Origin: Candidatus Didemnitutus sp.
GTDB lineage: Bacteria; Verrucomicrobiota; Verrucomicrobiia; Opitutales; Opitutaceae
NCBI GenBank assembly: GCA_023701285.1
Contig: JAMPXH010000021.1
Location: 1 to 45,338, forward strand
Direction: 5' to 3'
DNA: 45,338 nt
Shown here: positions 17,024 through 35,735 of the stretch, piece by piece
How the letters are laid out: the number at the start of each line of letters is the position of its first letter
Position numbering within the stretch: the first letter of the stretch is position 1
Program-made: the position numbers and the translations under genes
Notes under the pieces: generated by a model
What the model saw: the letters and a program-made list of their open reading frames with translations, nothing else
Database searches by the model: none
Told to the model about the DNA's origin: nothing

Positions 17024-17038
17024 GGTCAATCGTTGAGC
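17024..17038 (-). promoter_or_regulatory. Palindromic operator, SGNH/beta-helix side
   Basis: GGTCAATCGTTGAGC fits the consensus GGTnnACnGTnnACC with two deviations. It lies 36 bp before the SGNH gene start. Together with the site at 17,073 it forms 17-bp inverted arms with one mismatch. Confidence 0.65.
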
Positions 17039-17072
17039 CTGCGCGAGGGGCCTCCGGCCCCGATCGCCGAAG

Positions 17073-17087
17073 GCTCAACGGTTGACC
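17073..17087 (+). promoter_or_regulatory. Palindromic operator, PEP-CTERM/giant-protein side
   Basis: GCTCAACGGTTGACC fits GGTnnACnGTnnACC with one deviation. It lies 90 bp before the PEP-CTERM start. TTCTAG begins 10 nt after it, as at the related site 35,614. Confidence 0.7.
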
Positions 17088-17177
17088 GGAGCCGCGCTTC
17101 TAGCTCCGCGCCCGCTCTGCAAACTAGCCACCGCTGGTTCACCTCTCCCCGTTGGCTCTCCTCTGCATCCCCCTCTG

Positions 17178-18098
17178 ATGAATACCCCACGTTCGCTCTT
17201 GGCGCTCTGTCTCGCCGCCGTGCTTGGCGCGGCTTCGCTCCCGGCCCAGGTCAACCTCTCCAGCCTGACGCCCGTCGACGACACCTACACCTACACTCAA
17301 AATTTCAACGTCATCGGCGTGCCGAACACGACCACCATCGCCGGCACGTGGACGAACAATTCCCAGTTCGCCTACACGGCCAACGCGACGCCCTACACCA
17401 AGTCGATGACCGGTTGGTTCCTCAGCATGGTCTCGGATCCGACCGCGCCCACTTACGACACCTCGGGCACGGTGCGCATCGGCTCGGGCGGCGGCGGCAG
17501 CACCGCCGTCACCGGTCTCCTCGGCACCATCTTCGCCCATTCCTCCGGCGGACTCAACGAGACGGCCCTCACGCTCCGCAACACCGCCGCCACGCAGTCC
17601 GCGCTCGGCTTCGCCATCAAGAACGACACCGCCTCGGCGGTCGACACCATCACGCTCGCCTACACCGGCGAGCAATGGCGCCGGGAAAACAGCGCGCAGG
17701 CCAACACGCTCGAATTCCAATACAAGGTGGTCTCCAGCTTCACCGCCGCCGGCTATAACGTCTGGGCCGAGACCGGTTGGAGCGATCTCAACACGCTCGA
17801 CTTCACCAGTCCGATCGTCGGCGCGACGACGGGTGCCAATCTGGACGGCAACCTGACGGTGAACCGCTCGCTCAAGAGCGCCGCGCTGCCCGTGACGCTC
17901 GATAGCGGTGACTACCTGCTCGTGCGCTGGGTCTACAGCGACGCCGACACGCAGAACCTGCCCGGTCACGGCCTCGGCATCGACGACCTCTCGCTCAGCA
18001 TGGTCGCCGCGATTCCCGAGCCGTCCACGTATGCAGTCATTTTCGGGGCGCTCGCGCTGGGTGCGGTGGCGGTCATCCGCCGCCGTGGCCAACGCTGA
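17178..18098 (+). CDS. PEP-CTERM-sorted secreted protein
   Basis: The 306-aa protein begins with a signal peptide (SLLALCLAAVLGAASLPAQ) and ends with a PEP-CTERM sorting signal: IPEPSTYAVIFG, a hydrophobic helix and the basic tail RRRGQR. Family knowledge: such tails are cut by an exosortase/archaeosortase system linked with exopolysaccharide export; no exosortase is in this window. The middle is rich in Thr, Asn, Gly and beta strands, with no recognised catalytic domain. I chose the ATG at 17178 (MNTPRSLLAL), preceded by CCCCCTCTG. It is under the operator at 17,073, and a hairpin separates it from the giant gene 86 bp downstream. Confidence 0.85.
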   Translation: MNTPRSLLALCLAAVLGAASLPAQVNLSSLTPVDDTYTYTQNFNVIGVPNTTTIAGTWTNNSQFAYTANATPYTKSMTGWFLSMVSDPTAPTYDTSGTVRIGSGGGGSTAVTGLLGTIFAHSSGGLNETALTLRNTAATQSALGFAIKNDTASAVDTITLAYTGEQWRRENSAQANTLEFQYKVVSSFTAAGYNVWAETGWSDLNTLDFTSPIVGATTGANLDGNLTVNRSLKSAALPVTLDSGDYLLVRWVYSDADTQNLPGHGLGIDDLSLSMVAAIPEPSTYAVIFGALALGAVAVIRRRGQR

Positions 18099-18119
18099 GT
18101 TCCCTTTTTCGCCGTCACT

Positions 18120-18176
18120 TCACCCGCTGAGCCCGTGCGCATGGTGCGTCACGTCGTTCAGCGGGTGATTTCTTTT
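18120..18176 (+). terminator. Terminator-like hairpin directly before the giant gene start
   Basis: TCACCCGCTGA (18120-18130) pairs perfectly with TCAGCGGGTGA (18158-18168), followed by TTTCTTTT. The loop is 27 nt. It could end the PEP-CTERM transcript or act as an attenuator, because the next gene starts only 9 bp beyond and no operator of its own is seen. Confidence 0.65.
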
Positions 18177-18184
18177 CCCGCCGC

Positions 18185-21100
18185 ATGATCCGCCTCCTGT
18201 CCCGTCTCGCTGCGCTGGCGCTCTTCGCCTCGCTCCCGCCAGCGCTTTCCGCCGCGCCGTCGGTCGTGGCGGATTTCAACGACTGCACCACCGGCATCAT
18301 GCGGTCTGGCTATCAGCCGGCGGGCACCGGCATCGGTTTCAGCGCCCCTTATTGGGAGGGTGGCACGGCCGCCGTGCAGGTCGTCGCCGGCGATCTCACG
18401 GCTCCGACCGCGACCCGCTACGTCGCGACGCAGACGGCACCGGCGCGCAGCGTGCAGGCGCGCGGCGTATCGAGCACGACCCGCCGCCAGCAGTATCGCG
18501 AGATCGAGCAACCGCTCGTCGGCACGATTTGGGGCAGCTTCCTCGTGCAGCAGCTGGACGCCGCCACGCACAACACGGGCCTGACCTTCAACGTCGCGCA
18601 CATCGACCCGCTGAACCGCGTCAACGGCCAGGGCCGGCTTTACGTCGCGGGCTCGTCGCTGCTCGTGCACGGTTCCGGCAGCGCAGCCCCCACGCTCGTG
18701 CCCGGCCAGTTCGCCACCGGCCAGACCGCGCTCGTGCTCTTCCGCTACGTCAGCGAGACGCGCCAACTCACGGTCTGGGTCAACCCGGTGCTCCCGGACA
18801 CGCCGGCCGGGCTCACCGCTTTGCCGCCGGCCTTCGACGGTCTCTGCGACCTTCCCGGCGTCGGCGGAAACATCACGACGCTGGGCATCGGCGGTTATCC
18901 GGACACCTCCACTTCGACCAACTGCGGGCTCATCGATGCGGTGCGGCTGAGCGATCAGCCCTCGGGCTATTACGATGTGACGGGATTGCCCGTGGTGCCG
19001 ACGATCGTCGCCCAGCCGTCCGATCGCACCGTGGCTCGCGGCACGCAGGTCGTCCTCAGCGTCACCGCTTCCGGTCAGGGCGAACTCACTTACCAGTGGC
19101 AGAAGGACGGCGCCGATCTGCCCGGCGCCACGACGCCCCAGCTCACGCTCGCCGACGTGCAGGCGGCCGACGCCGCTGGCTATCGTGTGCAGGTGCGCGA
19201 TCCGCAGACGGGCGGCACAGTCTGGTCGCTGACCGCGACCTTGACCGTGCTGGAATCCATCGCGCCCGTCACGATCACCGCGCAGCCCCAGTCGCTTGCG
19301 CTCACCGCTGGACAGGATGCGACGTTGTCCGTCACCGCCACCGGCACGGCTCCGCTGACTTATCAATGGCAGCGCAACGGCGTCGACCTCGCCGGCGCGA
19401 CCGCGGCTCAGCTGAGCTTCGCTGCCGTGCAGCCCGGGCAGGCCGGACAATATCGGGTCATCGTCACCAACCCCGCGGGCAGCGTCGTTTCCGCCACGGT
19501 CGCCGTTGCGGTCGATGTCGCACCCGAGTTGATCGCGGTGCCTCAATCGACCGAGAGCTACGTCGGCGGCGCGGCGACATTCTACGTCGAGGCGCGCGGC
19601 ACGGCGCTGCACTATGAGTGGCGGCGCGGCAGCGTGCCGGTCGGAGGCGATGCGCCGCAGCTCACGCTCACCGCTTTGCAGTCCGGCGATGCCGGCAGCT
19701 ACACCGTCACCGTGCGCAACGCGCTCGGCAGCATCACTACGCCGGCGGCGACGCTCACGCTGGTGGCGGAAACGCCGGCGCCGGCCGGCAGCGTTGGCGC
19801 GGTCGCCGACAGTTTCGTGGAAAACGGCACGCAAGCCGCGCAACCGCGCAACGGGCTCGGCCTGCGCGTCGCCGCGCGCGGCACCGTGGCCGCGACCTAC
19901 AAGACCTATGTCGATTTTGCGCTGCCGCTCGCCGTGAAGGCGCGCGATGCCGGCACCGCCGCGGTGCGCTTCACGCTCGATCCGGTCGAGCCCGTGTTCA
20001 GCGGCGCCGATACGCCCGCGGCCGCGCTGCTGCCCTCGGCGGCGGCGATGCGGATCCGCTTCGGCTCCACCTCTAATTCGCAGACCTATCTCTCCGCCGG
20101 TCCGACGACGGCGGGCGCCGACATCTACCGCGGCCTGCTCACCTTCGACCTCTCCTCGCTCGCCTTCGTGCCCGATACGATGAGCCTGCGCCTGACCGTC
20201 GCCGCCAAGGCGAGCGGCGCCGTTGCCGGTGCGCGCACGCTGCGGCTGCACCGCGTGACGCGTCCGTGGGTGCAAGGGCAGGCGACCTGGACCCAGGCTT
20301 CGAACACGGTCGCATGGACGACGCCGGGCGGAGACTTCGATCCCGTGCCGCTGGCCGAGCTCGTGGCCGATCCCTCGACGGTGACGGTGGGGCAGGTCTT
20401 GGAATTCGCCGAGACCCCCGCACTGCGCCAAGCCTTGCTCGAGGTGCTCGACACCAGCGGCCTGCTTCAACTCGTGCTGGTCGTCGACGGCGAGGAGACG
20501 CTGAGCAACCGCGTCTTTCATTTTCATCCGCGCGGCACGGTCGGGCTCGAGCCCGCGCTCGTGTTGCCGTCCGGTGCGCTCGCCGGCAAGGCGCCGCGGA
20601 ATCCGCTGCGCGTTCGCTTGCACGGCGTGGTGAACAATGCCGCCGCGTGGAGCGAGGACACACTCACGTGGAACGCCGCGCCGGCCCGCGCCGATGCGAT
20701 CAGCAGTCCCGGTCCCGGAGCGGTGCCGCTGGCGGAGCTCACGCTCGACACCGCCACGCTCGCCGCCGGCGGCAACGTCACCTTCGCCGACCCGCGCATC
20801 GCGCAATTCCTCAACTGGGCCGCCGGCCGCCGCGGCGACCTCTACGACACCGGCCAGGCCTCCGACCTCGACCGCCGCGTGACCTTCATCCTCACCGCGC
20901 TCGATGGCGGCGAGTTCTTCGCCGGCGTGAAGTTCCGCGACCGCGAGAGCGGCGCCGGTCCGGTCCTCTGGTTCGACACAGCCGCGGTTGCGCCGGCCGC
21001 GGCCACGACGCTCGAGAACGACCGCTACCGCGTCGTGTTGCAGGAAGATCTCTCGCTCGCCGTGACCGACAAGCGCGATGGCGCCACCGCGCGGTTCGAA

Positions 21101-24100
21101 GCGGCCTTCGAGGTCGTGAGCCAGAGCGCCAACCCCGGCTTCTCGCGCCATTCCTACGACGTGAGCCCCACGCCGCTCTCGCTCGCCACGTGGAACACGA
21201 ATTTCAACTACAGCGCCGCCCCCGGCGAGCGGCTCACGCTCCGGCCCGTGGCGGTCCGCGCGCGCGACGGCGCGCTCAGCTGGAGCTATGCGCCGGGCAC
21301 CGCGGCTTTCGCTTTCCGCGCCGAACTCGATCTGCCGGCCGGCACCGCGTTCCCGCGCATGCGCTGGACGCTCACGCCCGGCGCGACGCGCTACTTCGGC
21401 GTCGCCTTCCAGCCGGTCGTCGCCGTGCCGAATTCCTCCGTCGACGCCTTCTACCTGCCCTGCGTGTGGAACGGCCGGCGTTTCCCCGACAACCAGTATC
21501 TCATCGACGAGACGCGCGCGACTTTGCCGGCAGCGTTCCGCGAGAGCGGCGGCGTGGTCAGCGGCGTGGCGGCGGACGCCTTCGAGGTGCCGCAGCGCGT
21601 CTCGACCTTCGTCAACTCCCTCTTCGGTCTCATCGCCAACGACGCCACGGCGGCCGCCAGCCGCCCGGCATTCGCCGCACCGATCTACGGGAGCGTGGGC
21701 TCGCGCACCGACGGCCTCCAGAGTTACGCCGCGCGCCTGATCGTCGGCGGCGCGGGGTTGGATCAGGCGTTTCGCGACGTCGCCACGGGCGTCTTTGGCT
21801 TCCACGATTACCGCGAGAATCTTCCCGCGGGCTCGCTCAATACCGCTCTCGATAACCTCGTCGACTTCATCCTCAACACCAGCGGACAGAACTACAGTTA
21901 CTGGCGCGCGAATGAGAAGGCCAACGAATATGTGAACGACAATCCCGACTACGTGCGCTTCCAGTCCGCCGCCGCCGCGCTCGGCCTCGCAATGGTGCGC
22001 GACGACGCCGGGCTCTACGAAGAGCGCGCCCGGCCGGCGATGGAGTATTTCCTCTCGCGACGCGGCTCGATGTTGAAGTTCACCGGCTACGATCCGGCCT
22101 ACGGCATGGGCGGTCCCGTGGCTGCGTATTACGGCACGGATTTCTACGCCCTGTTCGGCCTCACCGGTGGACGCACCTGGGGTTTCCTGCCGCTCGCGCA
22201 CGAAGCCCGTGTCGTCAGCGGATCGACCACGCTGCTCGGTGACATCATCACGCCCGGCCAGTCGCTGGCGCGCGGCGAGGCCTACGATCGTGTCTTCGAC
22301 ACGCTGCTCTCGCTCATCGAGGCCTATCGCGCGACGGGCGTGCCCGAATACCTCGCCGACGCGCGCTGGCTCACCGACGAATACGTGCGCCATCGCTACG
22401 ACAGCGGCCCGCCCCTGGATTTCCGCGACGCGAAGAGCAGTTTCTGGAGTCAGCTCGGCGGTCGTTGGGACGTCTTGCTCGAGATGGAGGAACTCACTGG
22501 CGATCCGCGCTACGCCGCGGCGGCGGCGCGGGCGATGAACGAATTCGCCCGGCACGTGAACTTCGGGCCGGCGGTCGGCGACTTCACGGTCGACGGTCTC
22601 GGCGTTCCGGTGAAGGCAGCCGCGGTGTCCGAGGTCGGCCTGACTTGCGAGGCGACCGCCACGTCCGTGAGCCATCGCGGCATCTTCATGAGCGCGTATG
22701 CGTCGGCGTCGTTCCTGCGGGCGGCGCGCTTGCACGCGGACCCGTTCTTCAAGGCCGTGGGTCGCTCCGGCATCGTCGGCCGCTGGATGAATTACCCGGG
22801 CTACACCATCCGCAACAACTACAACTCCGTGCTGCTGCGCTCCGATTACCCGCTGCGCTGGTATGCGACGTATGCCAACACCGCGCACATGAACCACCCG
22901 CTGCCGCTCGCGGGCATGGCGATCGATTTCCTCATGGCCGACACCGAACTGCGCTCCGCCGCGGCGGTGAAGTTCCCGCACCATTACACGGATTCGCGCG
23001 GCTATTTCCGCGGACGCCTCTACGGCGGCGAGCCGGGCGTGTTCTACGGCGACACCGAGGTCTGGCCCTGGCTGCCGCGTGCGCTGGTCTCGTTCGCCGG
23101 CCCCGATGCGGCCCAGCTCAACTACGTCGCCGGGCACGGCAACGGCCGGCTTTATCTCGCGTTCTCCAACCAGGCGAAGCGCGCGGTCGAGGTCACCGTT
23201 ACCGTCGACCCGGCGCGCGTCACGCTCACGCCTGGCGCGCGGCTGCGCGTGTGGCGCGACAATGTCGCGCAGCCGGACACGACCTTCGTCAACGGCGTCA
23301 CCACGATCAGCGTGCCCGCGGACGGCTTTGTGGCGTGGGCGATCGACGGGGCGACGCCCGCGCTGGGCCTGCAATCCGATTACATCGCCCGCACCGGCGC
23401 GCCGCTGGGCGAAGGGAGTTATCAGACGCAGACCGCGTCCTTCGGGCGCGTCGTCGGCGTGGTGCTCTCGCTGTCGCCCACGCGGCAGAATGCCTACGTC
23501 TACACCGATGCCGATCCGACCAAGCTCGCCTCGGCGCGCCTGCGCTACCGCGTGGACGGCGGCGCGGAGCAGACACTCACGAAGGCGGTTTTCCCGTTCG
23601 AGTTCAGTGTCACGCTCCCGGCCGGCACTCGCAGTTTCAGCTATGTCGTCGAGGGCACGCCGGCGGCCGGCGGCAGCGCGACGGTGAGCGAACAACGCAC
23701 GTTGCAGGTCGACATCGCGCCGGTCATCACCGCGGCGCCGGCGGCGCAGACGGTTTACGCCGGCCGCGCGGTGACGCTCTCCGTCACCGTGCAAGGCGAG
23801 GGACCTTTCACTTACCAATGGCGGCGCAACGGCATCGCGATTCCCGGCGCGACCGCCGCCACGCTGGAGCTGGCCGGCGCTCCCGGCGAGGCCGGCAGCT
23901 ACGATGTGATCGTCGGCAACGGTGCCGGCACTGTCACGAGTCCCGCGGCGCTCGTCACCGTGCAACTGGGCGACCTGCTGGCCTACGCGCTCGGCGGCAC
24001 CGGGGACGCGGCGCCCGTGGGACCGTTGATGGCGCTGGACGCTGCATCGGGCCGTCTGGCGTTGTCCTTTCACCGTGCGCGCGCCGAGGTGGATTACGCC

Positions 24101-24244
24101 GTGCAGGCCAGCGGCGATCTGATTTCCTGGACCGAGCTGGCGCGCAATCCCGGCGCCGTGGGCCAGACGGTGACGGTGGAGGACTCGGTGGCGTTGACTG
24201 CGGCCGCGCGGCGCTTCCTCCGCCTGCAAGTCGAGTTGCCCTGA
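18185..24244 (+). CDS. Giant secreted multidomain protein 1 (lectin-like, Ig, putative alpha/alpha-barrel)
   Basis: The 2,019-aa exported protein has a signal peptide at 1-22. A lectin-like module (about 24-268: ADFNDC, VVAGDLTAP, RRQQYR, IWGSFLV, VWVNPVL) is followed by three Ig-like domains (about 271-355, 358-443, 445-530; TYQWQKDG, TYQWQRNG). A DNRLRE/CBM96-like region runs about 535-935 and includes DPRIAQFLNWAAGRRG. A beta-rich part (about 940-1200) precedes an alpha-helical core (about 1200-1610; SGQNYSYW, NTAHMNHP). A further beta domain and a fourth Ig (about 1847-1925) lead to a C-terminal module (1927-2019) ending RRFLRLQVELP. The core may be a carbohydrate-active alpha/alpha toroid, but I do not recognise the family. 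It is a paralogue of the next gene and is probably expressed by read-through from 17,073. Confidence 0.75.
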   Translation: MIRLLSRLAALALFASLPPALSAAPSVVADFNDCTTGIMRSGYQPAGTGIGFSAPYWEGGTAAVQVVAGDLTAPTATRYVATQTAPARSVQARGVSSTTRRQQYREIEQPLVGTIWGSFLVQQLDAATHNTGLTFNVAHIDPLNRVNGQGRLYVAGSSLLVHGSGSAAPTLVPGQFATGQTALVLFRYVSETRQLTVWVNPVLPDTPAGLTALPPAFDGLCDLPGVGGNITTLGIGGYPDTSTSTNCGLIDAVRLSDQPSGYYDVTGLPVVPTIVAQPSDRTVARGTQVVLSVTASGQGELTYQWQKDGADLPGATTPQLTLADVQAADAAGYRVQVRDPQTGGTVWSLTATLTVLESIAPVTITAQPQSLALTAGQDATLSVTATGTAPLTYQWQRNGVDLAGATAAQLSFAAVQPGQAGQYRVIVTNPAGSVVSATVAVAVDVAPELIAVPQSTESYVGGAATFYVEARGTALHYEWRRGSVPVGGDAPQLTLTALQSGDAGSYTVTVRNALGSITTPAATLTLVAETPAPAGSVGAVADSFVENGTQAAQPRNGLGLRVAARGTVAATYKTYVDFALPLAVKARDAGTAAVRFTLDPVEPVFSGADTPAAALLPSAAAMRIRFGSTSNSQTYLSAGPTTAGADIYRGLLTFDLSSLAFVPDTMSLRLTVAAKASGAVAGARTLRLHRVTRPWVQGQATWTQASNTVAWTTPGGDFDPVPLAELVADPSTVTVGQVLEFAETPALRQALLEVLDTSGLLQLVLVVDGEETLSNRVFHFHPRGTVGLEPALVLPSGALAGKAPRNPLRVRLHGVVNNAAAWSEDTLTWNAAPARADAISSPGPGAVPLAELTLDTATLAAGGNVTFADPRIAQFLNWAAGRRGDLYDTGQASDLDRRVTFILTALDGGEFFAGVKFRDRESGAGPVLWFDTAAVAPAAATTLENDRYRVVLQEDLSLAVTDKRDGATARFEAAFEVVSQSANPGFSRHSYDVSPTPLSLATWNTNFNYSAAPGERLTLRPVAVRARDGALSWSYAPGTAAFAFRAELDLPAGTAFPRMRWTLTPGATRYFGVAFQPVVAVPNSSVDAFYLPCVWNGRRFPDNQYLIDETRATLPAAFRESGGVVSGVAADAFEVPQRVSTFVNSLFGLIANDATAAASRPAFAAPIYGSVGSRTDGLQSYAARLIVGGAGLDQAFRDVATGVFGFHDYRENLPAGSLNTALDNLVDFILNTSGQNYSYWRANEKANEYVNDNPDYVRFQSAAAALGLAMVRDDAGLYEERARPAMEYFLSRRGSMLKFTGYDPAYGMGGPVAAYYGTDFYALFGLTGGRTWGFLPLAHEARVVSGSTTLLGDIITPGQSLARGEAYDRVFDTLLSLIEAYRATGVPEYLADARWLTDEYVRHRYDSGPPLDFRDAKSSFWSQLGGRWDVLLEMEELTGDPRYAAAAARAMNEFARHVNFGPAVGDFTVDGLGVPVKAAAVSEVGLTCEATATSVSHRGIFMSAYASASFLRAARLHADPFFKAVGRSGIVGRWMNYPGYTIRNNYNSVLLRSDYPLRWYATYANTAHMNHPLPLAGMAIDFLMADTELRSAAAVKFPHHYTDSRGYFRGRLYGGEPGVFYGDTEVWPWLPRALVSFAGPDAAQLNYVAGHGNGRLYLAFSNQAKRAVEVTVTVDPARVTLTPGARLRVWRDNVAQPDTTFVNGVTTISVPADGFVAWAIDGATPALGLQSDYIARTGAPLGEGSYQTQTASFGRVVGVVLSLSPTRQNAYVYTDADPTKLASARLRYRVDGGAEQTLTKAVFPFEFSVTLPAGTRSFSYVVEGTPAAGGSATVSEQRTLQVDIAPVITAAPAAQTVYAGRAVTLSVTVQGEGPFTYQWRRNGIAIPGATAATLELAGAPGEAGSYDVIVGNGAGTVTSPAALVTVQLGDLLAYALGGTGDAAPVGPLMALDAASGRLALSFHRARAEVDYAVQASGDLISWTELARNPGAVGQTVTVEDSVALTAAARRFLRLQVELP

Positions 24245-24279
24245 GGTCCCGCAAGAGGCGAGCGGGGTAGGGCGCGGCG

Positions 24280-24294
24280 GGTCAACCGTATACC
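24280..24294 (+). promoter_or_regulatory. Palindromic operator before giant protein 2
   Basis: GGTCAACCGTATACC matches the consensus GGTnnACnGTnnACC fully. It lies 72 bp before the start of giant protein 2. TTAACG begins 10 nt after it, in the same relative position as TTCTAG or TTCAAT at the other plus-strand sites. Confidence 0.72.
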
Positions 24295-24365
24295 GTCCCG
24301 TCGCTTAACGGTCGCTGTCTGGCCTGCCATGGGTGATGACGCTGGCTCACCCCTTTTCTTACCCC

Positions 24366-27300
24366 ATGAAATCCATCCCCGGAATCGTCCGTTGGGCGGC
24401 TCTCCTCCTTTGGGCGGCTTGCGCCTGGCTTCGCGCGGAGGCGCAGACCGCTGCGGCGGATTTCAACGATTGCAAACCCGGCACACTGCAGGCCGCGGGC
24501 GGACAGACGGCCAACACGGGCACCGGGTTTCTGGACGCGCATTGGCTGGGTAACACCAGCCTCGTCCGGGTCATCGCCGGCGATCTCGCTGCGCCGGCCG
24601 CGACGGGTTACGCCATCGTGCCGGCGGGCACGGCGCAGAGCCTGCAGGCGCAGACGGTCAGCTCCGGCACGCGCCGGCAGCAATACCGCGGGCTGGCCAC
24701 GCCGCTGAGCGGCGAGATCTGGGGCACGTTCCTGATTCGCCAGAGCGCCGCCGATCAACTCACCGGGCTGACGTTCAACGTGGTGTCGATCGACCCTGCG
24801 CTCAATTCGAGCGGCGCGGGCCGGCTCTACGCGCAGGGCGCGGCGCTGCTGCTGCACCCGGTCGGAGGCAGTCCCGTGCTCGTGCCGGATGTCTTCACGC
24901 TCGGTGAAACCGCGCTCGTGGTCTTCCGCCTCGACACGTCCGTCGACCAAGTGGAGGTCTGGATCAATCCCGTCCTCGGCGGAACGCCTGCGGCGACGCG
25001 CGGAGTCACGCCGGCCTACCGCGGCACGCTCGATCTGCTCGGGACCACGAACCAGATCGGCACGGTCGGCCTCGGCGGCTACCTGACGACGACCACCGCG
25101 GGCAGCGCCGGCGTGCTCGATGCGTTGCGTCTCGGTGGCGGCGCGGCTGGCTATTACTTCGTCACCGGCGTCACCATCCCCTTGCTCCCGGAGATCGTCA
25201 CCCAGCCCGTCAGCCAGACCGCCACGCTCGGTGGCTCGGTCACGTTCACGGCCGCCGCCACCGGCGCGGCGCCGCTCACCTACCAATGGCAGAAGGACGG
25301 CGTCGATCTGCCCGGCGCCACGGCACCGCAGCTCACGCTCGCCGGCCTCACCGCCGGCGACGCGGGTAGCTATCGCCTCGTGGTCAGCAACGCCGGCGGC
25401 TCCGTCCAGTCCGCCGCGGCCACGCTCACGCTCGTGGCGCCGCCACCACCGGAGATCGTCACTCAGCCCATCAGCCAGACGGCCGCGCTCGGCGGCTCGG
25501 TCACGTTCACGGCCGCCGCCACCGGCGCCGCGCCGCTCGCCTACCAATGGCAGAAGGACGGCGTCGATCTGCCCGGCGCCACGGCACCGCAGTTGACGCT
25601 CGCCGGCCTCACCGCCGGCGACGCGGGCAGCTATCGCGTCGTCGTCGGCAACGCCGGTGGCTCCGTCCCGTCCGCCGCGGCCACGCTCACGCTCGTGGCG
25701 CCGCCGAGCGAACTCGCCGGTTCCATCGCACCGCGGGCCGACGCCACCGTGCAGAACGGCGATCAAGCCGCGCTCAATCTCAACGGCAACGGCCTCGTCG
25801 TCTCGGCGCGCGGCACCACGTCGGCGGCGCGCAAGAGCTGGCTCAGTTTCGACCTGCCGCCGGCGGCGGTCTTGCGCGAGGTCGGCCGGGCCTCGCTGCG
25901 CCTGACCCTCTCGCCGCAGAATCCCTTCATCGGCGCCGCCGTGAGCACCGTCGAGACGTCCGTGGTCGCCTCGGCCGACGTGCGCGCGCGCAGCACCAGC
26001 GCGAACAACCAGGGCGCGACCAACGACCTCGCGGTCGGCCCGATCGGCGCCAACGACGTGTTCCGCTCGCTCCTGAGCTTCGACCTATCCGAGCTGACCA
26101 CGCCGCCGGCCGAGGTCGCGTTCAAGATCCGCATCGGCAACAAGGACCCGACCTCCGGCGCGGGCACGCAGACGCTGCGGCTCTACCGGCTCACGCGTCC
26201 GATCGACGAGGCGACGGCCAGCTGGATCCATGTCTCGGAGCTCGAGGATTGGCTGACCCCCGGCGGCGATTACGAGCTGACGCTCCTGTCCGAGGCCAGC
26301 GCCGATCCGACGACCGTCACCGTCGGGCAGGAGCTCACGTTCCCTTCCACGCCCGCGCTCGTGGCGGCGGTCGGCCAGGCGTTGACGAGCGAAGGCGTGC
26401 TGCACCTCGTGCTCCTGTCGTCGGCCGAAAATCTCGGGCAGCGCAGTTTCTTCTTCTTCGATTCCCGCGAGGATACCGGCAAGGAGCCGCGGCTGGTCGT
26501 CGGCGCGCAGGGCCAGTCCTCGCTCGACACCGGCAATCCGGTGCGCCTCCAGCTCCACGCGATCGTCGACGGTCAGGATGTGTGGACCGAGACCGGTCTC
26601 ACTTGGAACAACGCCCCGAAGAACGCGACCGCCTCCGCCACCGGCGTGAAATCCGGCACGGCGTTGGTGGCCACCGCGACGGTGGAGAGCGGCGTGCTCG
26701 CGGGCGGCGCGTCGGTCGTGTTCGACGATCCGCGCATCGCGCAATTTCTCAACTGGGCCGCCGGCCGCCGCGGCAATCTTTACGGGACGGGGCAGACCGC
26801 CGATCCCGATCAGCGGGTGACGTTCATCGTCACGGCGATCGATGCGGGTCTCTCGTTCCCCGGGCTGCGCTTCGTCGACCGCGAGGCGGCGGCGGCCGAG
26901 CAGCGTCCGGCGCTGCTGTTCGACACGGTCGCCACAGCGCCTGCCGGCACCACGTTGGAAAACGAGCGCTACCGCGTCACGCTGCGCGAGGACCTCCGGT
27001 TCGAGGTGACGGACAAGCTGGCCGACGCGACCGCGGTCTTCGCCGCGCAATTCGAGGTGGTGCACCAGGGAACGAATCCCGGGCTCGGCCTCTCCGGGGC
27101 GATCCAAGGCGCGTTGCAGGGCGGCACCACGAACCAGGTCGGTTTCCGCATCCCCAGCTGGGGCGCGGTGACGGATTTCGCCAGCGCACCCGGCACGCGC
27201 GCGACCCTGTTGCCGGAGGCCGCCGCGTTGCGCGATGGCGTCGTGGCGTGGAGCTACGCACCGCGCTCCGCCTTCGGTCTGCGGGCGATGCTCGATCTGC

Positions 27301-30188
27301 CGGCCGGCACTGCCGCGCCGCGGCTGCACTGGACGCTGTCGCCCACCGCCGCCCAATATTGGACCGTCGGCTACACCGGAGCGCCCAGCGCGACCGACGC
27401 GGAGGTCGCCGAGTTCTACGTGCCCGGCATCTGGAACGGCCGGCGCTTCATGGCCGCGGTCTATCTCATCGACGAGATGCGCGCCATGCTGCCCGCCGCG
27501 CTGCAGGAGCGCGCCGGCGTCGTCAGCGGCGTGGTGGTCGATCCCTTTGAGATGCCGCGCCGCCTCGCCACCGCGGGCAACTCCGCCTTCGCCCTGACGG
27601 GCCGGACGAGCGACGCGCGCAACCGCCCGGCGGCCTACGCGCCGCTCTACGGCGGCACCGGCTCGCTCGCCGACACGACCTTGCATTTCACCGTGCGCCC
27701 CGTCGTGCGCGGCGGCGCGCTCCCCGCCGCCTTCCGCGAGGTCGCGCAGACGATCTACGGCTTCCGCGACTACCGCGAGAACCTCGCCAGCGGCTCGTTG
27801 AACACCGCGCTGGAGAACCTCGTCGACTTCACGCTCAACACCACCGGGCAGAATTACAGCTACTGGAACACCAACGTGAAGGCCAACGAGTATGTGAACG
27901 ACAAGCCCGGCTACTCGCGTTTCCAGTCCGCGCCGACCGTGCTCGCGCTCGCGATGATGGTCGACGACGCCAACCTCTACGAGCAGCGCGCGCGGCCCTC
28001 GATCGAGTATTTCATCTCGCGCCAGCGCCAGCTGATGAAGAGCTCGGGCTACGACCCCGAATACCCGATGGGCGGCCCGGTCACCGGCTACCGCGCGACC
28101 GATTGGTTCGCGCTCGCGAGCCTGACCGGCGGCCGCACCTACGCGTTCCAGCCGCTCGCGCGCGAGGCGTTGAACAGCAGCAAGAGCCTGCTCGACCAGG
28201 TCAACCACACCGTCCCGCTCACGCGCAACGAGGCGCTCGACCTGGGTTTCAATTGGCTGCGCTCGCTCATCGAGGCTTATCGTTTCACGCAGGATCCGGC
28301 CTACCTCGTCGACGCGCGCCATGTGGCCGACGCCTACATCACCGAGCGCATCGACGTGCCGCCGGTGGATTTCCGCGACGTGCGCAGCAGCTTCTGGAGC
28401 CTGCTCACGCCCGCGTGGGAGACGCTGCTCGAACTGCACGACCTCACCGGCGAAGCGCGCTACGCCAACGCGGCGGCGCGTGCCGCGGAGGAGTTCACGC
28501 GCCACCTGCATTACGGGCCGGCGCTCGCCGGCGGCGCGATCCGCACGATCGACACCACGTTGCCCGCGTGGCAACTGTCCGAGGTGGGGCTGCCCAGCGA
28601 GGCCGCCGGCACGTCCGACAGCCACCGCGCGATCTACATGCCGTATGCCTCCGCCAGCCTCCTGCGCATCGCGCGCCGGCAGCAGGACCCGTGGTTCGTG
28701 GCCACGGCGCGCTCCGGCATCATCGGCCGTTTCCTCAACTACCCGGGCTACACGCTGCGCAACCGCTACAACGCGGAGTTCCTCAAGGCGTCCTATCCGC
28801 TCCGCTTCTACAGCACCTACCAGAACACCGCGCACATGAACCATCCGATGCCGATGGCCGCGATGATCATCGACTACCTGATGGCCGACGCGGAATATCG
28901 CTCGGGCGGCGCGATCGAATTTCCCCACGCCTTCACCGACTCCGGCGCGTATTTCCGCGGCCGGCTCTTCGGGCACGCGGCGGGCACGTTCTACGGCGAC
29001 ACCGGCGTGCGTCCCTGGCTGCCGAAGGGACTCGTGACTCTCACGGGCCTCGACGCGAGCCAGCTCAACTGGATCGCGGGCTACGGCAACGGCCGGCTCT
29101 ACCTCGCCTTCGCCAATCAGGCGCCGCGTGCGGTGCAAGTCACGCTCACGCTCAACGGCGCACGCGTCGCCGTCCCGCCCGGCGCGCGGATGCGCGTGTG
29201 GCGCGAGAACGTCGCGCAGGCGGATTTGGGCTTCGTCAACGGCGCCACGACCGTGGCGGTTTCGCCCGGAGGCTTCACGGTCTTCGCCATCGACAACGCG
29301 ACGCCGGTGCTGCGCCTGCAGGCGGATTACGCGAACGGCTTCGGTGCGCCGCTGAGCGCCACGAGTTACGTGAAAGGCATGGCCACGTTCGGCGAAGTCG
29401 TGGGCACGGTCGTGTCGCTGTCGCCGACGCGCCAGCACGCCTACGTCTATACCACGGCCACGCCCGACGTCGTGAGCACCGCGCGGCTGCGCTACCGCAT
29501 CGACGGCGGAGCGGAGCAGATCGCTACCAAGTCGGAATATCCCTTCGAGTTCACCGTCGCCCTCGCGGAAGACACGCGCTCGTTAACCTACGTGGTCGAG
29601 ACGACCGCGGTGTCCGGCGGCGCGGTGCAGGTGAGCAGCGAGTATGCGCTGCAGCTCTCCGTGCCGCCCGCGATCGCCACGGCGCCGGCGGCGCAGACGG
29701 TCACGGCCGGCAGTGAGGTGACGTTGAGCGTCACCGCCGCGGGCACGGGGCCGTTCACGTATCAGTGGCGGAAAAACGGCGTCGCGCTTCCCGGTGCCAC
29801 GTCGGCCACGCTGGTGCTCAGCGGTGCGCCCGGTGACGCGGGCAGCTACGACGTCATCGTCTCCAACGGCTCCGGCAGCGTCACGTCCGCCGCCGCGGTC
29901 GTAACCGTGCAGCTGGTCGACCTGCTCGCTTACGCGCTCGGTGCCACGGGTTCGGTGCCGGCGTCAACTCCGGTGCCCGGACACGGAGCCGGCGGACAAC
30001 TCTCCCTGACCTTCGTGCGCGCGCGCGCCGATGTGACCTACACGGTGCAAGCGAGCGCCGATCTCCAGCAGTGGACGGATCTCGCGGTGAATCCCGGGCA
30101 GGTCGGCGAGATGGTGACCGTGACGGATTCCGTCGCGTTATCCGGGGCAGGGCGCCGCTTCCTGCGCTTGCAGGTCGCGCTGCCCTGA
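24366..30188 (+). CDS. Giant secreted multidomain protein 2 (paralogue of protein 1)
   Basis: The 1,940-aa exported protein has a signal peptide (about 1-25, IVRWAALLLWAACAWLRAEA). The order repeats that of the preceding gene: lectin-like module (about 28-272, with ADFNDC and VIAGDLAAPAATGY), two near-identical Ig-like domains (about 276-445), DNRLRE/CBM96-like region (about 446-860, with DPRIAQFLNWAAGRRG) and a beta-rich part from about 861. The helical core (about 1130-1540; TGQNYSYW, NTAHMNHP), a beta domain, a last Ig (about 1765-1842) and the C-terminal module ending RRFLRLQVALP follow. It has one fewer N-terminal Ig than its neighbour. I chose the ATG at 24366 because 11 residues upstream (from 24333) precede the signal. 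Function is inferred as polysaccharide binding or degradation; the family is not recognised. Confidence 0.75.
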   Translation: MKSIPGIVRWAALLLWAACAWLRAEAQTAAADFNDCKPGTLQAAGGQTANTGTGFLDAHWLGNTSLVRVIAGDLAAPAATGYAIVPAGTAQSLQAQTVSSGTRRQQYRGLATPLSGEIWGTFLIRQSAADQLTGLTFNVVSIDPALNSSGAGRLYAQGAALLLHPVGGSPVLVPDVFTLGETALVVFRLDTSVDQVEVWINPVLGGTPAATRGVTPAYRGTLDLLGTTNQIGTVGLGGYLTTTTAGSAGVLDALRLGGGAAGYYFVTGVTIPLLPEIVTQPVSQTATLGGSVTFTAAATGAAPLTYQWQKDGVDLPGATAPQLTLAGLTAGDAGSYRLVVSNAGGSVQSAAATLTLVAPPPPEIVTQPISQTAALGGSVTFTAAATGAAPLAYQWQKDGVDLPGATAPQLTLAGLTAGDAGSYRVVVGNAGGSVPSAAATLTLVAPPSELAGSIAPRADATVQNGDQAALNLNGNGLVVSARGTTSAARKSWLSFDLPPAAVLREVGRASLRLTLSPQNPFIGAAVSTVETSVVASADVRARSTSANNQGATNDLAVGPIGANDVFRSLLSFDLSELTTPPAEVAFKIRIGNKDPTSGAGTQTLRLYRLTRPIDEATASWIHVSELEDWLTPGGDYELTLLSEASADPTTVTVGQELTFPSTPALVAAVGQALTSEGVLHLVLLSSAENLGQRSFFFFDSREDTGKEPRLVVGAQGQSSLDTGNPVRLQLHAIVDGQDVWTETGLTWNNAPKNATASATGVKSGTALVATATVESGVLAGGASVVFDDPRIAQFLNWAAGRRGNLYGTGQTADPDQRVTFIVTAIDAGLSFPGLRFVDREAAAAEQRPALLFDTVATAPAGTTLENERYRVTLREDLRFEVTDKLADATAVFAAQFEVVHQGTNPGLGLSGAIQGALQGGTTNQVGFRIPSWGAVTDFASAPGTRATLLPEAAALRDGVVAWSYAPRSAFGLRAMLDLPAGTAAPRLHWTLSPTAAQYWTVGYTGAPSATDAEVAEFYVPGIWNGRRFMAAVYLIDEMRAMLPAALQERAGVVSGVVVDPFEMPRRLATAGNSAFALTGRTSDARNRPAAYAPLYGGTGSLADTTLHFTVRPVVRGGALPAAFREVAQTIYGFRDYRENLASGSLNTALENLVDFTLNTTGQNYSYWNTNVKANEYVNDKPGYSRFQSAPTVLALAMMVDDANLYEQRARPSIEYFISRQRQLMKSSGYDPEYPMGGPVTGYRATDWFALASLTGGRTYAFQPLAREALNSSKSLLDQVNHTVPLTRNEALDLGFNWLRSLIEAYRFTQDPAYLVDARHVADAYITERIDVPPVDFRDVRSSFWSLLTPAWETLLELHDLTGEARYANAAARAAEEFTRHLHYGPALAGGAIRTIDTTLPAWQLSEVGLPSEAAGTSDSHRAIYMPYASASLLRIARRQQDPWFVATARSGIIGRFLNYPGYTLRNRYNAEFLKASYPLRFYSTYQNTAHMNHPMPMAAMIIDYLMADAEYRSGGAIEFPHAFTDSGAYFRGRLFGHAAGTFYGDTGVRPWLPKGLVTLTGLDASQLNWIAGYGNGRLYLAFANQAPRAVQVTLTLNGARVAVPPGARMRVWRENVAQADLGFVNGATTVAVSPGGFTVFAIDNATPVLRLQADYANGFGAPLSATSYVKGMATFGEVVGTVVSLSPTRQHAYVYTTATPDVVSTARLRYRIDGGAEQIATKSEYPFEFTVALAEDTRSLTYVVETTAVSGGAVQVSSEYALQLSVPPAIATAPAAQTVTAGSEVTLSVTAAGTGPFTYQWRKNGVALPGATSATLVLSGAPGDAGSYDVIVSNGSGSVTSAAAVVTVQLVDLLAYALGATGSVPASTPVPGHGAGGQLSLTFVRARADVTYTVQASADLQQWTDLAVNPGQVGEMVTVTDSVALSGAGRRFLRLQVALP
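25191..25712 (+). repeat. Tandem duplication of one Ig-domain unit (2 x 261 bp)
   Basis: The segments 25191-25451 and 25452-25712 are about 93% identical by eye and in frame (87 codons each). Each encodes a full Ig-like domain (EIVTQP...TYQWQKDG or AYQWQKDG...). The near identity, including at third codon positions, points to a recent duplication inside the giant gene. Confidence 0.9.
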
Positions 30189-30209
30189 GCCGGGATCGTG
30201 CAGGAGGTG

Positions 30210-30233
30210 GGCGTCGGTGTCCCGACCGACGCC
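30210..30233 (+). terminator. Hairpin after giant protein 2
   Basis: GGCGTCGGT (30210-30218) pairs perfectly with ACCGACGCC (30225-30233) around a 6-nt loop, 21 bp after the stop codon. No T-run follows. Similarity to the hairpin at 3950 suggests it also belongs to the repeat cluster. Confidence 0.45.
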
Positions 30234-30319
30234 TGTCGCCGCTGGAACAGCGGCGACCACCTCATGGTCAGGCGCTCATCAGTCGGGAATCGCGTCCACC
30301 TGCATGAGTCCGGCTGAGC
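30234..30319 (+). repeat. Dispersed intergenic repeat, copy 3 (complete)
   Basis: This is the best-preserved copy. It opens with a perfect 10-bp hairpin, GTCGCCGCTG-gaa-CAGCGGCGAC (30235-30257), then CACC, a variable spacer, and the core at 30274-30318 (GCTCATCAGTCGGGAATCGC to GCATGAGTCCGGCTGAG). It lies in the 385-bp gap between giant protein 2 and the convergent beta-helix gene. Confidence 0.8.
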
Positions 30320-30345
30320 GGCGGCGCGGAAGAGCGTGGTGCAGC

Positions 30346-30380
30346 AAAAAGGCCGGTCTTCGGACCGGCCCTTCGTTTTT
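30346..30380. terminator. Bidirectional intrinsic terminator
   Basis: GGCCGGTC-TTCG-GACCGGCC (30351-30370) is a perfect 8-bp stem with a UUCG tetraloop. An A-run lies on the left (30346-30350) and CTTCGTTTTT on the right. It therefore has a T-run in both directions and can end both giant gene 2 (plus) and the beta-helix gene (minus). The rest of the gap, 30381-30573, shows no gene I can support. Confidence 0.85.
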
Positions 30381-30573
30381 CGCGACGCGATGCCGCGCCG
30401 GCTGTGTGCAAGGTGGAGCGTGAGGTTGAACCGGTCGGGCAGGGCGAGGAGCCACGTCGGCACTCGGTTCGCGTGGAGCGTTTGCCCCGTCGACAGGTTC
30501 ACGCAGGTGCGGTGAGTTTGGCCGCACCCGCGGCCCGACTGGCGGCATTTTCGAACGTCGCCGGGGGAACACG

Positions 30574-32658: not shown

Positions 32659-32659
32659 G

Positions 32660-32684
32660 GGGAGGATCGCCGGACGATCCTCCC
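32660..32684 (-). promoter_or_regulatory. Perfect hairpin abutting the start codon of the beta-helix gene
   Basis: GGGAGGATCG and CGATCCTCCC form a 10-bp perfect stem with a 5-nt loop, ending one base before the ATG at 32658. It would put the ribosome-binding region in a stable stem, so it may control translation of the second gene of the operon. Confidence 0.6.
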
Positions 32685-32821
32685 GGGCGGGCGCGCCGCC
32701 GTCCGATTGCGCATCGGCGCGGAGGCGCGGCGAGCCAAGAGTGCCGGACGGCGGGGGAGACAGCTTGACGGACGGGGAAGGGGATGGCCGCGGTCGCGCG
32801 GCCCGGGTGCAGCGCGGCGGC

Positions 32822-33655
32822 TTACGGCGTGCCGAGGCCGGTGACGGCGGCGTAGGCGCCCTCGCCGTCGGCAAGCGTCACGGCGTCGAGGATGCCGCCG
32901 ACCTGGCCTGCGCCGGTGCGCAGATCGTAGCTCTGGAGGCCGAGCGTCGCGATGGCCAGCGTCGAACCGATGAAGCCGGTGTTGCCGAGCGCGAAGGCCG
33001 GCTTCGGCAGGTCGGCGGGATTCGCCGTGAGCTGCGGGTTGACCCAGAGTTGGAGCTTGTCGTTCTTGCCGTTCGGGGCGGCGCCGATGTCGAGGCGCAC
33101 GAGGATGAGCGCGGCCTGGCCGAGTGGGACGGCGTCGATGGCCTCGCCGGCTTTCACGTTGCCGGCGTTGAACACGCGGACGGTTCCGCCTTCGACGACG
33201 ATGCGCGTGCCGACGACGCTGTTGGCGATCTGCGGGCGACCGTTGAAGTCGATGCCCGCGGCTTGGTTGGCGTCGGCGTTCTTCACGAGGAAGGAAATCC
33301 ACACCGTGCCGGTGAGTTTCTGCGCGAGCGGGCGGCACTGGCGGCGGTCGGTGGCGTCGTCGAGCTTGTAGGCGGGGGCCTGGTAGCTGCGCGGGTTGCC
33401 GCTTTGGGCGAGACCGTAGCCGGTGGCGGCCGGAGCGGCGAGATCGCCGGCGACGATGCGCGGCACGCCGGTGTCGGTCGCCCAATACGGCGCACCGAAG
33501 CCGCGGCCCGTGTCGGCGGGTTGCTGGTTCTTCTGTTTGCCGCGCGGATCGCCGAGGGCGAGATCGTTGAAATTCGCGGAGACGACGGCGCCGTGCAGGG
33601 CGGTGGCCGCGCCGAGCGCGGCGAGGGAGAACAGGCAGGAGGAGACGTTTTTCAT
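32822..33655 (-). CDS. Stand-alone lectin-like secreted protein (same module as the giant proteins' N-terminus)
   Basis: The 277-aa product is a signal peptide (FSLAALGAATALHGA) followed by one domain. The domain shares its landmarks with residues about 25-270 of both giant proteins: ANFNDL, IVAGDLAAPAATGYG, DRRQCRPL, VWISFLV, LQLWVNPQL and GILDAVTLADG, in the same order. The string AGDLAAPAATGY is identical to giant protein 2. The fold is probably a concanavalin-like beta sandwich, but this is inference. I chose the ATG at 33655, preceded by CTCTCCCCTCCCC. It is first in the operon with the beta-helix gene, under the operator at 33,746. The spacing to the next start is 163 bp. Confidence 0.8.
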   Translation of the reverse strand: MKNVSSCLFSLAALGAATALHGAVVSANFNDLALGDPRGKQKNQQPADTGRGFGAPYWATDTGVPRIVAGDLAAPAATGYGLAQSGNPRSYQAPAYKLDDATDRRQCRPLAQKLTGTVWISFLVKNADANQAAGIDFNGRPQIANSVVGTRIVVEGGTVRVFNAGNVKAGEAIDAVPLGQAALILVRLDIGAAPNGKNDKLQLWVNPQLTANPADLPKPAFALGNTGFIGSTLAIATLGLQSYDLRTGAGQVGGILDAVTLADGEGAYAAVTGLGTP

Positions 33656-33745
33656 GGGGAGGGGAGAGACCGGGGCCGAGGCGCGCGCGTCCGGGATAAC
33701 GCGCGCCATCCAATTTTTTTCGGTGCGCGACTCAACGCCCGCGCA

Positions 33746-33760
33746 GGTCAAACGTCGACC
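33746..33760 (-). promoter_or_regulatory. Palindromic operator, lectin-like/beta-helix operon side
   Basis: GGTCAAACGTCGACC fits GGTnnACnGTnnACC with one deviation. It lies 90 bp before the lectin-like gene. TTGAGT starts 10 nt after it on the minus strand. Confidence 0.65.
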
Positions 33761-33801
33761 GCCGCCTGGCTCGGCCGTTGCGCGCACGCAGGCGGGCGGA
33801 G

Positions 33802-33816
33802 GGTCAACCGTCTACC
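33802..33816 (+). promoter_or_regulatory. Palindromic operator, beta-helix gene at 33,940
   Basis: GGTCAACCGTCTACC is a full consensus match, identical to the site at 35,614. It lies 123 bp before the start. TTCAAT begins 10 nt after it. Confidence 0.72.
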
Positions 33817-33939
33817 CGCGGCGGCCTTCAATCGCGTCACGCGGGATGCAAACGTGCAGTGTCCTTGCTTTGTCCCACCCCGCGCTGTCCGTGCGATCGT
33901 CCGTCTTCGCGCCGCGGCGCCCACTCAGTTGCTCTCTCC

Positions 33940-35595
33940 ATGAAACGTTCCCTGCTTCCTTTCCTGCTCGCGCTCGCTCCGTTGACGCTTTGCGCCGGAG
34001 TCACCCGTCTGCATGTGGCGGATTTTGGCGCGCGGCCTGACGACGGCCGCTGCGACACCGAGGCGCTGGTAGCGGCGTTCGCCGCCGCGAAGCGCCAGGC
34101 ACCGGCCGAGCTGCATTTCGCCGCCGGCACCTACACGTTGACCAAGCCCGGCGCGAAGGAGCATTACCTCGCGCTGATCGAGGCCCGCGATGTCGCGCTC
34201 ATCGGCGCCGTCGATGCGCAGGGCGGTCCGGCCACGCGGCTGGAGCGGGTCTTCGCGCTCGATAACGACACCACGCTGCCGAACCAGCTCGCGATCGCGC
34301 GCTCCGAGCGCATCACGGTGCGCAATCTCGTCCTCGCGAACAATCCGCCGCTCGGCAGCACCGCGCGCGTGCTCGCGGTCGACCGCGAGAAGGACGAGGT
34401 GCTCGTCGAGGTCTTGCCCGGCCTGCCCGCCTATGACGGCATGCGCTGCGCCTCGGCGCATGCGTGGGACCTTGCCACGGGCAAGCTGAAGCGCTTCGGC
34501 ACCACGCCCGAATCCGCCACGCTTACGATCGGGCTCAACATCAAGGCATTCTGGCGCGCCGTGCCCGGCACCGATGCGCGCCGCCTCACCATGACGGGTG
34601 CGGGCTTCAGCAAGAAGGTCGAGGTCGGCGACGGCATCTCGTGGCATCACAAGTCGGCCGAGATGCCGAACCAGACTTCGGTGATGTATTCGCGCGACAT
34701 CGTGTTCGAGAACGTCTTTTTCCCCAACGTCGGCAACATGGGCATGATCGCCGGCTACAACCACAACCTCACGTTCCGCCGCGTGCGCTTCGAGCCGGAG
34801 AACGGCAACCTCGCCATCGGCGGCCGCGACGGCCTGCACCTGAGCATGAACTCCGGCGAACTCCTCGTGGAGGACTGCGTGTTCAAGGGTCTGCGCATGG
34901 ACCCGCTCGTGATCCGCCGCTCGTTCGGCATCGTGAAGGAAGTGCGCGGCACCGACACGCTCTTCATTTCGCCGGGCTACGATGTGCCTGCGGGCGACCG
35001 CATCCGCTTCTGGGTCGGCGAGCAGCCGGTCGATCTCGTCGTCAAGCAGGCCAAGCGCCAGAAGGGCGGCTACGCCTACGTCTTCACGGGCGCCGTGCCG
35101 GCCGGCACCGCCGTGGGCACCGCGGTGAGCTTCCAGACCTACAGCCTCACGCAGGGCGTGATCCGCCGCACGCTCTTCGCCGAGAATTTCGGCAGCGCGA
35201 TCGTGAACTTCGAGGAGAACATCACCGTCGAAGACTGCACCTTCGACAACAACTCCTACCAGGTGAAATACGGCCCCAACGCCGTCTCCGGCGGCTTCGT
35301 GCGCAACAACGTCGTCCGCCACAATGTGTTTTTGAACTCCAGCTGGATCGACATCGCACGCCGCGGTCAGCCCGCGGCCATCGTCATCCACTCGCTCAGC
35401 CGCTTCTTCAAGGAGCCGCGCTACAACGCCAACATCCTCATCACGGGAAACGTCTTCAAGAATCCCCACGGCCAGGCCGAGGCCGCCGCCATCGACGTGC
35501 GCCACGCCGAGGCCGTCGAGATTCGCGACAACGTCTACGAGGGCTACACGCGCGAGGTCGTGCGCGACGGCGTCGTGGTCGCCCCGACGCGCTGA
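33940..35595 (+). CDS. Secreted right-handed beta-helix protein
   Basis: The 551-aa product has a signal peptide (LLPFLLALAPLTLCAG). The pectate-lyase-superfamily opening is VADFGARPDDGRCDTEAL with LHFAAGTYTL, and beta-helix rungs follow. VGDGISWHHKS (about 229-239) is mirrored by VGDRLSWHYG in the protein at 30,574, showing that these two are close relatives. GGRDGLHLS (Asp297, His300) and LRMDPLVI (Asp321) occupy the motif positions of the GH110-like enzyme, but the double Asp is replaced by Met-Asp. It is likely a carbohydrate-active enzyme or binding protein. The start has CTCTCTCC before ATG. It is divergent from the lectin-like operon. Confidence 0.8.
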   Translation: MKRSLLPFLLALAPLTLCAGVTRLHVADFGARPDDGRCDTEALVAAFAAAKRQAPAELHFAAGTYTLTKPGAKEHYLALIEARDVALIGAVDAQGGPATRLERVFALDNDTTLPNQLAIARSERITVRNLVLANNPPLGSTARVLAVDREKDEVLVEVLPGLPAYDGMRCASAHAWDLATGKLKRFGTTPESATLTIGLNIKAFWRAVPGTDARRLTMTGAGFSKKVEVGDGISWHHKSAEMPNQTSVMYSRDIVFENVFFPNVGNMGMIAGYNHNLTFRRVRFEPENGNLAIGGRDGLHLSMNSGELLVEDCVFKGLRMDPLVIRRSFGIVKEVRGTDTLFISPGYDVPAGDRIRFWVGEQPVDLVVKQAKRQKGGYAYVFTGAVPAGTAVGTAVSFQTYSLTQGVIRRTLFAENFGSAIVNFEENITVEDCTFDNNSYQVKYGPNAVSGGFVRNNVVRHNVFLNSSWIDIARRGQPAAIVIHSLSRFFKEPRYNANILITGNVFKNPHGQAEAAAIDVRHAEAVEIRDNVYEGYTREVVRDGVVVAPTR

Positions 35596-35613
35596 GCCGC
35601 GTCGCGTTGGCCG

Positions 35614-35628
35614 GGTCAACCGTCTACC
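35614..35628 (+). promoter_or_regulatory. Palindromic operator before the autotransporter
   Basis: GGTCAACCGTCTACC is a full consensus match. It lies 108 bp before the autotransporter start and 19 bp after the stop of the upstream beta-helix gene. TTCTAG begins 11 nt after it. Confidence 0.72.
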
Positions 35629-35735
35629 GCGGCGAGGGTTTCTAGTTCCCCGCCGCGGGCCTAAAAAATCATCAAGCTGTCCTGTTCTTCCCGCTGCTCC
35701 GGCCCGGGAAGTCTCTCCCTGTCACACCCCTCCCC

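Follow-up and report, generated by a model that had tools for sequence, protein, structure and literature searches.

A palindromic operator of an accessory regulon in Candidatus Didemnitutus and its candidate LacI-family regulator

Several described regulators of the LacI family act from a site upstream of the -35 element, and they are the closest known systems to the one presented here: six palindromes on a 45,338-nucleotide contig of Candidatus Didemnitutus sp. (JAMPXH010000021.1), together with a candidate LacI-family regulator encoded elsewhere in the genome. This contig, C137 of a 4.02-Mb, 220-contig genome (G000), was analyzed whole and is called the window below. In Bacillus subtilis, activation by CcpA is associated with cre positions upstream of -35 and depends on the helix face (ackA, pta, and ilvB; PMC3463425), and CcpA has been placed 14 bp upstream of -35 (PMC6882875). 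Activating cre sites thus share the LacI/GalR family and the upstream position with the present case. However, CcpA is global, needs HPr-Ser-P, and mostly represses, and its cre has 14 bp, an even palindrome centered on CG, whereas the operator here is a 15-bp odd palindrome that keeps nearly one position, 10 bp from -35.

Other members of the family differ in other ways. The LacI-type AraQ and MalR1 of Bifidobacterium breve have sites that lie 15-16 or 33-35 bp ahead of -35 and are read as activating (PMC6882875), but their motif is 20 bp long, holds no single distance, and serves central carbon genes. IpsA of Corynebacterium is a LacI-type activator whose sites lie upstream of -35 at activated genes and overlap -35 or -10 at repressed ones (PMC3899939); it is an inositol regulator of cell-wall precursors, and the likeness compared here is one of site position. 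RhaR, RhiR, and RhmR, also of the LacI family, control rhamnose or rhamno-oligosaccharide genes through 20-bp palindromic motifs of four consensus types (PMC3870299), unlike the 15-bp core found here; this separation is by motif. The word “Verrucomicrobi” is absent from the main text of that paper. Searches with the exact operator strings returned unrelated papers only, and searches on LacI proteins of Verrucomicrobia or Opitut-named groups brought up nothing on the motif, as judged by titles and the starts of abstracts, with subscription papers mostly outside its scope. The family and the principle of activation from upstream of -35 are known; what sets this case apart is that an odd operator keeps a single rigid place over much of its predicted regulon.

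The sites, the extent of the regulon, the co-occurrence with the regulator, the promoter geometry, and its conservation were all obtained by computation. A preliminary description of the window had reported six palindromes confined to promoters of an accessory block of secreted and surface genes, and all six were found where it had placed them, each upstream of a gene of that block (Operators 1 to 6, Table 1). The consensus is GGTCAAC-n-GTTGACC, a 15-bp core with an odd center and a variable position 8. Against the reference string GGTNNACNGTNNACC, Operators 3, 5, and 6 have no mismatch, Operators 2 and 4 have one, and Operator 1 has two. At up to one mismatch the window holds five matches, every one among the six, compared to a mean of 0.78 and a maximum of 3 in shuffled sequence. 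At up to three mismatches there is no enrichment (115 observed vs. 141.9 expected), and this loose pattern is unconvincing by itself. Because several matches in the window have exactly two mismatches, Operator 1 rests on a refined, oriented pattern, GSTCRACNNTNNACC-N10-TT: when each site is oriented to its gene, TT follows exactly 10 nt downstream of the palindrome. This pattern matches six times in the window and never in 100 shuffles. Because the six sites served to define it, the window count is only descriptive, and independent tests come from the remaining genome and from other species. A matrix scan of the window gave no above-threshold site beyond the six.

In the whole genome, the oriented pattern has 10 exact matches, namely the six in the window and four new ones, three on contig C115 and one on C164. 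At up to one mismatch there are 23, compared to three for the reversed pattern. As to background frequency, which the preliminary description had named as grounds for refutation, the loose pattern does not exceed it and the oriented pattern does. Of the 13 single-mismatch additions, four are on C115 and one is on C164; the eight elsewhere all lie within open reading frames (ORFs) from a simple caller, weakly called for L025, L026, and L028, and are treated as chance hits, which agrees with the three given by the control. In G012, a sister genome, one contig carries the sites of both the C115 and the C164 type (C8:153779-210187), and the window-type sites are on C7:315537-333758.

The predicted regulon thus reaches beyond the window to a second locus, which the preliminary description had missed, as it had the oriented promoter layout. 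The C115 genes include two GH106 (glycoside hydrolase family 106) alpha-L-rhamnosidases, RhaT, galactokinase, GH97 and GH16-like proteins, GDSL and SASA esterase-type proteins, a major facilitator superfamily transporter, and a flavin adenine dinucleotide (FAD) oxidoreductase. On C164 a GH78-type rhamnosidase stands behind its site, and part of the C115/C164 gene set lacks a site of its own. By their families, these genes and those of the window block would suit a rhamnogalacturonan-like substrate, a polysaccharide with rhamnose and galactose that is acetylated and perhaps also sulfated. One palindrome, at C164:428-442, lies between divergent genes with TTG at +10 on both sides, and this operator may serve two promoters.

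The comparison of genome hits with LacI genes that had been proposed for the window leads to the same second locus, where, beside the rhamnosidases, a LacI-family gene with a site upstream is encoded at C115:23350-24447 on the minus strand. The preliminary description had argued for a LacI-type regulator unlinked to the window. An operator set that defines an accessory regulon is supported, and the best candidate regulator is a LacI-family protein encoded outside the window. The reason given at the time, the odd-length shape of the palindrome, is not supported: of the 1303 motifs of the family in PMC4052901, 1251 have the even form, and odd palindromes make up about 4%. The operator departs from the majority form (an even palindrome with a central CG) and belongs to the odd minority.

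The C115 LacI protein has an N-terminal helix-turn-helix (HTH) domain (PF00356, 52.9 bits vs. a cut-off of 27) and a possible C-terminal periplasmic-binding-protein-like sensor domain, with a match just under the cut-off (PF13377, 25.5 bits vs. 26.5); full-length orthologues exist. No NCBIfam model reaches its cut-off for the protein, and a PDB sequence search gave three generic LacI regulators, the best at E 9.5e-9. The palindrome GGTCCACCGTTGACT lies upstream of the gene, with its center 36 bp ahead of where the match begins. Among 76 genomes, its own included, the only other close matches are in G012 (98%), G023 (63%), G048 (61%), and G055 (51%), the next being at most 36%, and the palindrome precedes lacI in all five. 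In a pattern search of these genomes, the 12 matched genomes besides G000 and G012 have 16 matches in total; single matches there mean little, because the reversed control gave 26 over all 76 genomes (summed by eye). An exception was made for the two matches in G055, where the lacI orthologue has the site as well. A broader pattern with one mismatch gave mostly background across five genomes.

A scan of public genomes extended the set to 27 orthologue loci, including Opitutaceae, Puniceicoccales, Ereboglobus, Lacunisphaera, and Pelagicoccus mobilis. In 23 non-duplicate loci (L137, L142, L149, and L155 omitted as the same records as G012, G023, G048, and G055), a palindrome-only matrix found 30 sites, at least one in 19 of the 23, compared to a mean of 3.1 and a maximum of 6 for controls made by symmetric permutation of the matrix. 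A site of at least 11 bits lies within 250 bp upstream of lacI in 16 of 27 genes; L163, a partial match, is counted among the 23 loci and left out of this upstream count. P. mobilis KCTC 13126 carries two orthologues on different scaffolds (L152 and L158), with upstream palindromes of 24.4 and 9.4 bits. Over 273 genomes of the order, the orthologue (E 1e-90 or better) occurs in 10, all of which hold the palindrome at up to one mismatch; it is found in 55 of the 263 genomes without the orthologue (Fisher p 3e-7, and 1.4e-6 minus the own genome).

These data make the C115 LacI a well-supported candidate for the regulator of the palindrome set. It is improbable that the palindrome is instead the operator of a different regulator, a LacI paralogue or a member of another family, with the C115 lacI gene merely one of its targets. 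Such a role for a paralogue would draw on the 10 LacI HTH matches in the genome, and at least one palindrome does occur in those 55 genomes. That number is about background, because the reversed control is present in 63 of 273 genomes (by eye), two of them among the 10 with the orthologue. The palindrome in all 10 orthologue genomes and its linkage to lacI in 16 of 27 loci also argue for the C115 LacI. As a separate matter, the LacI query drew 190 candidates on a first look at a 7.4-Mb relative of the same family (G017), with 25 matches reaching E 1e-40 or better; this one genome appears to hold a very large LacI-family expansion. The regulator and site set are present in two of 13 genomes of the genus (G000 and G012), some of the 13 being incomplete, and the loci look accessory, perhaps horizontally gained.

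In other species, sites were chosen by the palindrome alone and paired mechanically, the nearest site to each gene, with lacI genes omitted. Of the 29 pairs, 21 have T at +10, 15 have TT, and 11 have TTG, compared to a TT background of 7.9% (p 8e-10). Other pairings gave TT in 14 of 22 for genes of at least 250 aa and in 16 of 35 for all pairs. An earlier hand-assigned set gave 17 of 25; it had omitted some pairs without TT and was kinder to the model, and the mechanical count is the one reported. The mechanical table omits L146 5994 (no called gene) and L144 8159 (the ORF is lacI), both with TTG. The next conserved block is at +33 to +38 (T33, A35, and T38 in 14, 13, and 17 of the 29 pairs, respectively); 17 bp separate this predicted -10-like element from the -35-like hexamer. 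At +10 in the own genome, 15 of 18 pairs have TT and all 18 have T, part of these sites having been picked with TT. Upstream of lacI itself, TT is at +10 in just 5 of 13 sites, which means that the site there is mostly positioned differently.

Conservation between the two sister species follows the same layout. Over 17 aligned regions, some overlapping, identity between G000 and G012 is 98.8% in the palindrome, 95.1% in -35, and 94.1% in -10, the best-conserved parts. The 10-bp gap (89.4%), the 17-bp spacer (80.3%), and the sequence upstream (83.6%) and downstream (89.9%) are less alike. The palindrome of Operator 1 is kept in G012, and this comparison gave no conserved extension upstream of the 15-bp core. 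The site therefore appears to belong to an oriented promoter in which the palindrome is followed by 10 bp, TT(G), a further 17 bp, and a TAnnnT-like element. The operator would lie upstream of -35 and overlap neither of the predicted promoter elements. A -35 inside the palindrome (TTGACC) was considered; no -10 was seen by eye 17 bp from it. Another reading, the initial idea in the analysis, was that of an extracytoplasmic function (ECF) sigma-factor promoter with accidental palindromy, since the 21 nt from AAC to TT resemble the spacing of ECF promoters. Both arms of the palindrome are conserved, however, and the extra element at +33 to +38, 17 bp from TT(G), is sigma70-like; this reading was dropped after the geometry and the G000/G012 results, and we regard it as very improbable.

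The explanation that we consider probable is that the palindrome is the operator of the C115 LacI and a fixed part of a sigma70-type promoter at its targets, where the protein most likely activates. We infer binding, activation, and ligand along these lines. With the -10 element set at -12 to -7, the palindrome spans about -60 to -46 and has its center near -53, and a dimer bound to it would sit just upstream of RNA polymerase. A sugar from a rhamnose-containing polysaccharide would be the signal, and the regulator would recruit or stabilize RNA polymerase at each promoter of the regulon; the site at its own gene would probably be autoregulatory. An activator, and not a roadblock repressor, is predicted from the fixed position upstream of -35 and from the one oriented site per divergent gene. 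The same LacI protein and operator could also form a classical sugar-released repressor, the fixed distance serving to contact or trap the adjacent RNA polymerase. This is unlikely, since the operator overlaps neither -35 nor -10, its distance is constant on the side facing the gene, and at divergent genes there is usually one oriented site for each (in the window, where Operators 1 and 2 and Operators 4 and 5 form the divergent pairs already reported, and in L138 and L162), with no constant distance between paired sites to suggest looping.

Several points besides the 10 LacI HTH matches count against the explanation that we favor. LacI proteins mostly repress. Eleven of the 27 lacI genes have no upstream site of 11 bits, and TT is missing at +10 from 14 of the 29 other-species pairs, among them GH106 in L140 and genes in G048, L145, L157, and L159. 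In the window TTG occurs at only two of six sites, and the -10 matches are individually weak. An upstream cre can repress by blocking an activator (lev, PMC3463425), and an AraQ mutant had no significant change in expression at genes predicted to be activated (PMC6882875).

The genes in question are listed in Table 1. From gene order and short gaps, the six promoters could cover the block from 14115 to 45264. The longest ORF of the GDSL gene extends to 17078, across the site. A single broken minus-strand gene between 30574 and 33787 was considered and dropped, as two separate genes stand there in the sister species as well. A strong hairpin at 18120-18168 (-35.1 kcal/mol, z -4.0 vs. shuffles), followed by AUUUCUUUU, lies between the gene ending at 18098 and the giant gene from 18185; it is a terminator-like element within the presumed transcription unit and may set the ratio of both proteins.

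Table 1. Operators, predicted promoter elements, and genes of the accessory block (window coordinates)
Feature	Coordinates	Strand	Promoter elements, basis, or placement
Operator 1 GCTCAACGATTGACC	17024..17038	-, towards GDSL gene	TT 17013-17012; -10 window 16990-16985
Operator 2 GCTCAACGGTTGACC	17073..17087	+	-35 window 17098-17103 (TTCTAG); -10 window 17121-17126
Operator 3 GGTCAACCGTATACC	24280..24294	+	-35 window 24305-24310 (TTAACG); -10 window 24328-24333
Operator 4 GGTCGACGTTTGACC	33746..33760	-, towards minus-strand gene	-35 window 33735-33730 (TTGAGT); -10 window 33712-33707
Operator 5 GGTCAACCGTCTACC	33802..33816	+	-35 window 33827-33832 (TTCAAT); -10 window 33850-33855
Operator 6 GGTCAACCGTCTACC	35614..35628	+	-35 window 35639-35644 (TTTCTA); -10 window 35662-35667 (TAAAAA)
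GDSL esterase-type gene	16206..16961	-	ORF and Pfam, start inferred; target of Operator 1
Beta-helix gene	14115-16196		9 bp after GDSL gene
Secreted-type protein without Pfam match	17178..18098	+	ORF, start inferred; target of Operator 2
Giant immunoglobulin (Ig)/DNRLRE gene	18185-24244		after 17178..18098 gene
Giant Ig/CBM96 protein	24366..30188	+	ORF and Pfam, start inferred; target of Operator 3
Secreted-type protein without Pfam match	32822..33655	-	start inferred; target of Operator 4
Pectate-lyase-like/Golvesin_C gene	30574 to about 32658		after 32822..33655 gene
Pectate-lyase-like/beta-helix protein	33940..35595	+	ORF and Pfam, start inferred; target of Operator 5
PATR autotransporter	35736..41834	+	ORF; target of Operator 6
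GLAA-B-domain gene	41903-43735		after PATR autotransporter
Sulfatase	ORF to 45264		after GLAA-B-domain gene

In other species, some of the genes behind the sites fit the same theme: GH106 (L139, L147, and L161), FAD oxidoreductases (L138 and L144), TonB receptors (G055, L145, and L162), and beta-helix or pectate-lyase-like proteins (L144 and L145). Less telling are PSD1/PSCyt and DUF1552 proteins, an SSF transporter, GH43, and an fn3 protein, and five of the 20 scanned proteins have no Pfam match.

The analysis gives a candidate regulator, operator, and regulon in a group for which the searches, judged by titles and abstract starts, showed no mapped LacI regulon, and the matrix can be used to find further targets. 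It further connects the use of rhamnose polysaccharides with giant surface proteins whose role is unknown. If activation holds true, this would be a LacI-family regulon whose target promoters mostly share one rigid activator-type layout, and activation of RNA polymerase by the LacI fold would be testable at many natural promoters. A wider reading, which we offer tentatively and would not call probable, is that a LacI branch in Opitutales-type Verrucomicrobiota has turned into a dedicated, position-locked activator, which would use the odd 15-bp operator to switch on whole rhamnose-polysaccharide degradation loci as a unit, with the giant surface proteins and the autotransporter among their products. 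At the majority of its target promoters, the operator would then keep a fixed place 10 bp ahead of a weak -35. If that position-locked activator is real, others of the many LacI paralogues in this order may take the part that SusR, HTCS, or AraC proteins play in other polysaccharide degraders and be activators too.

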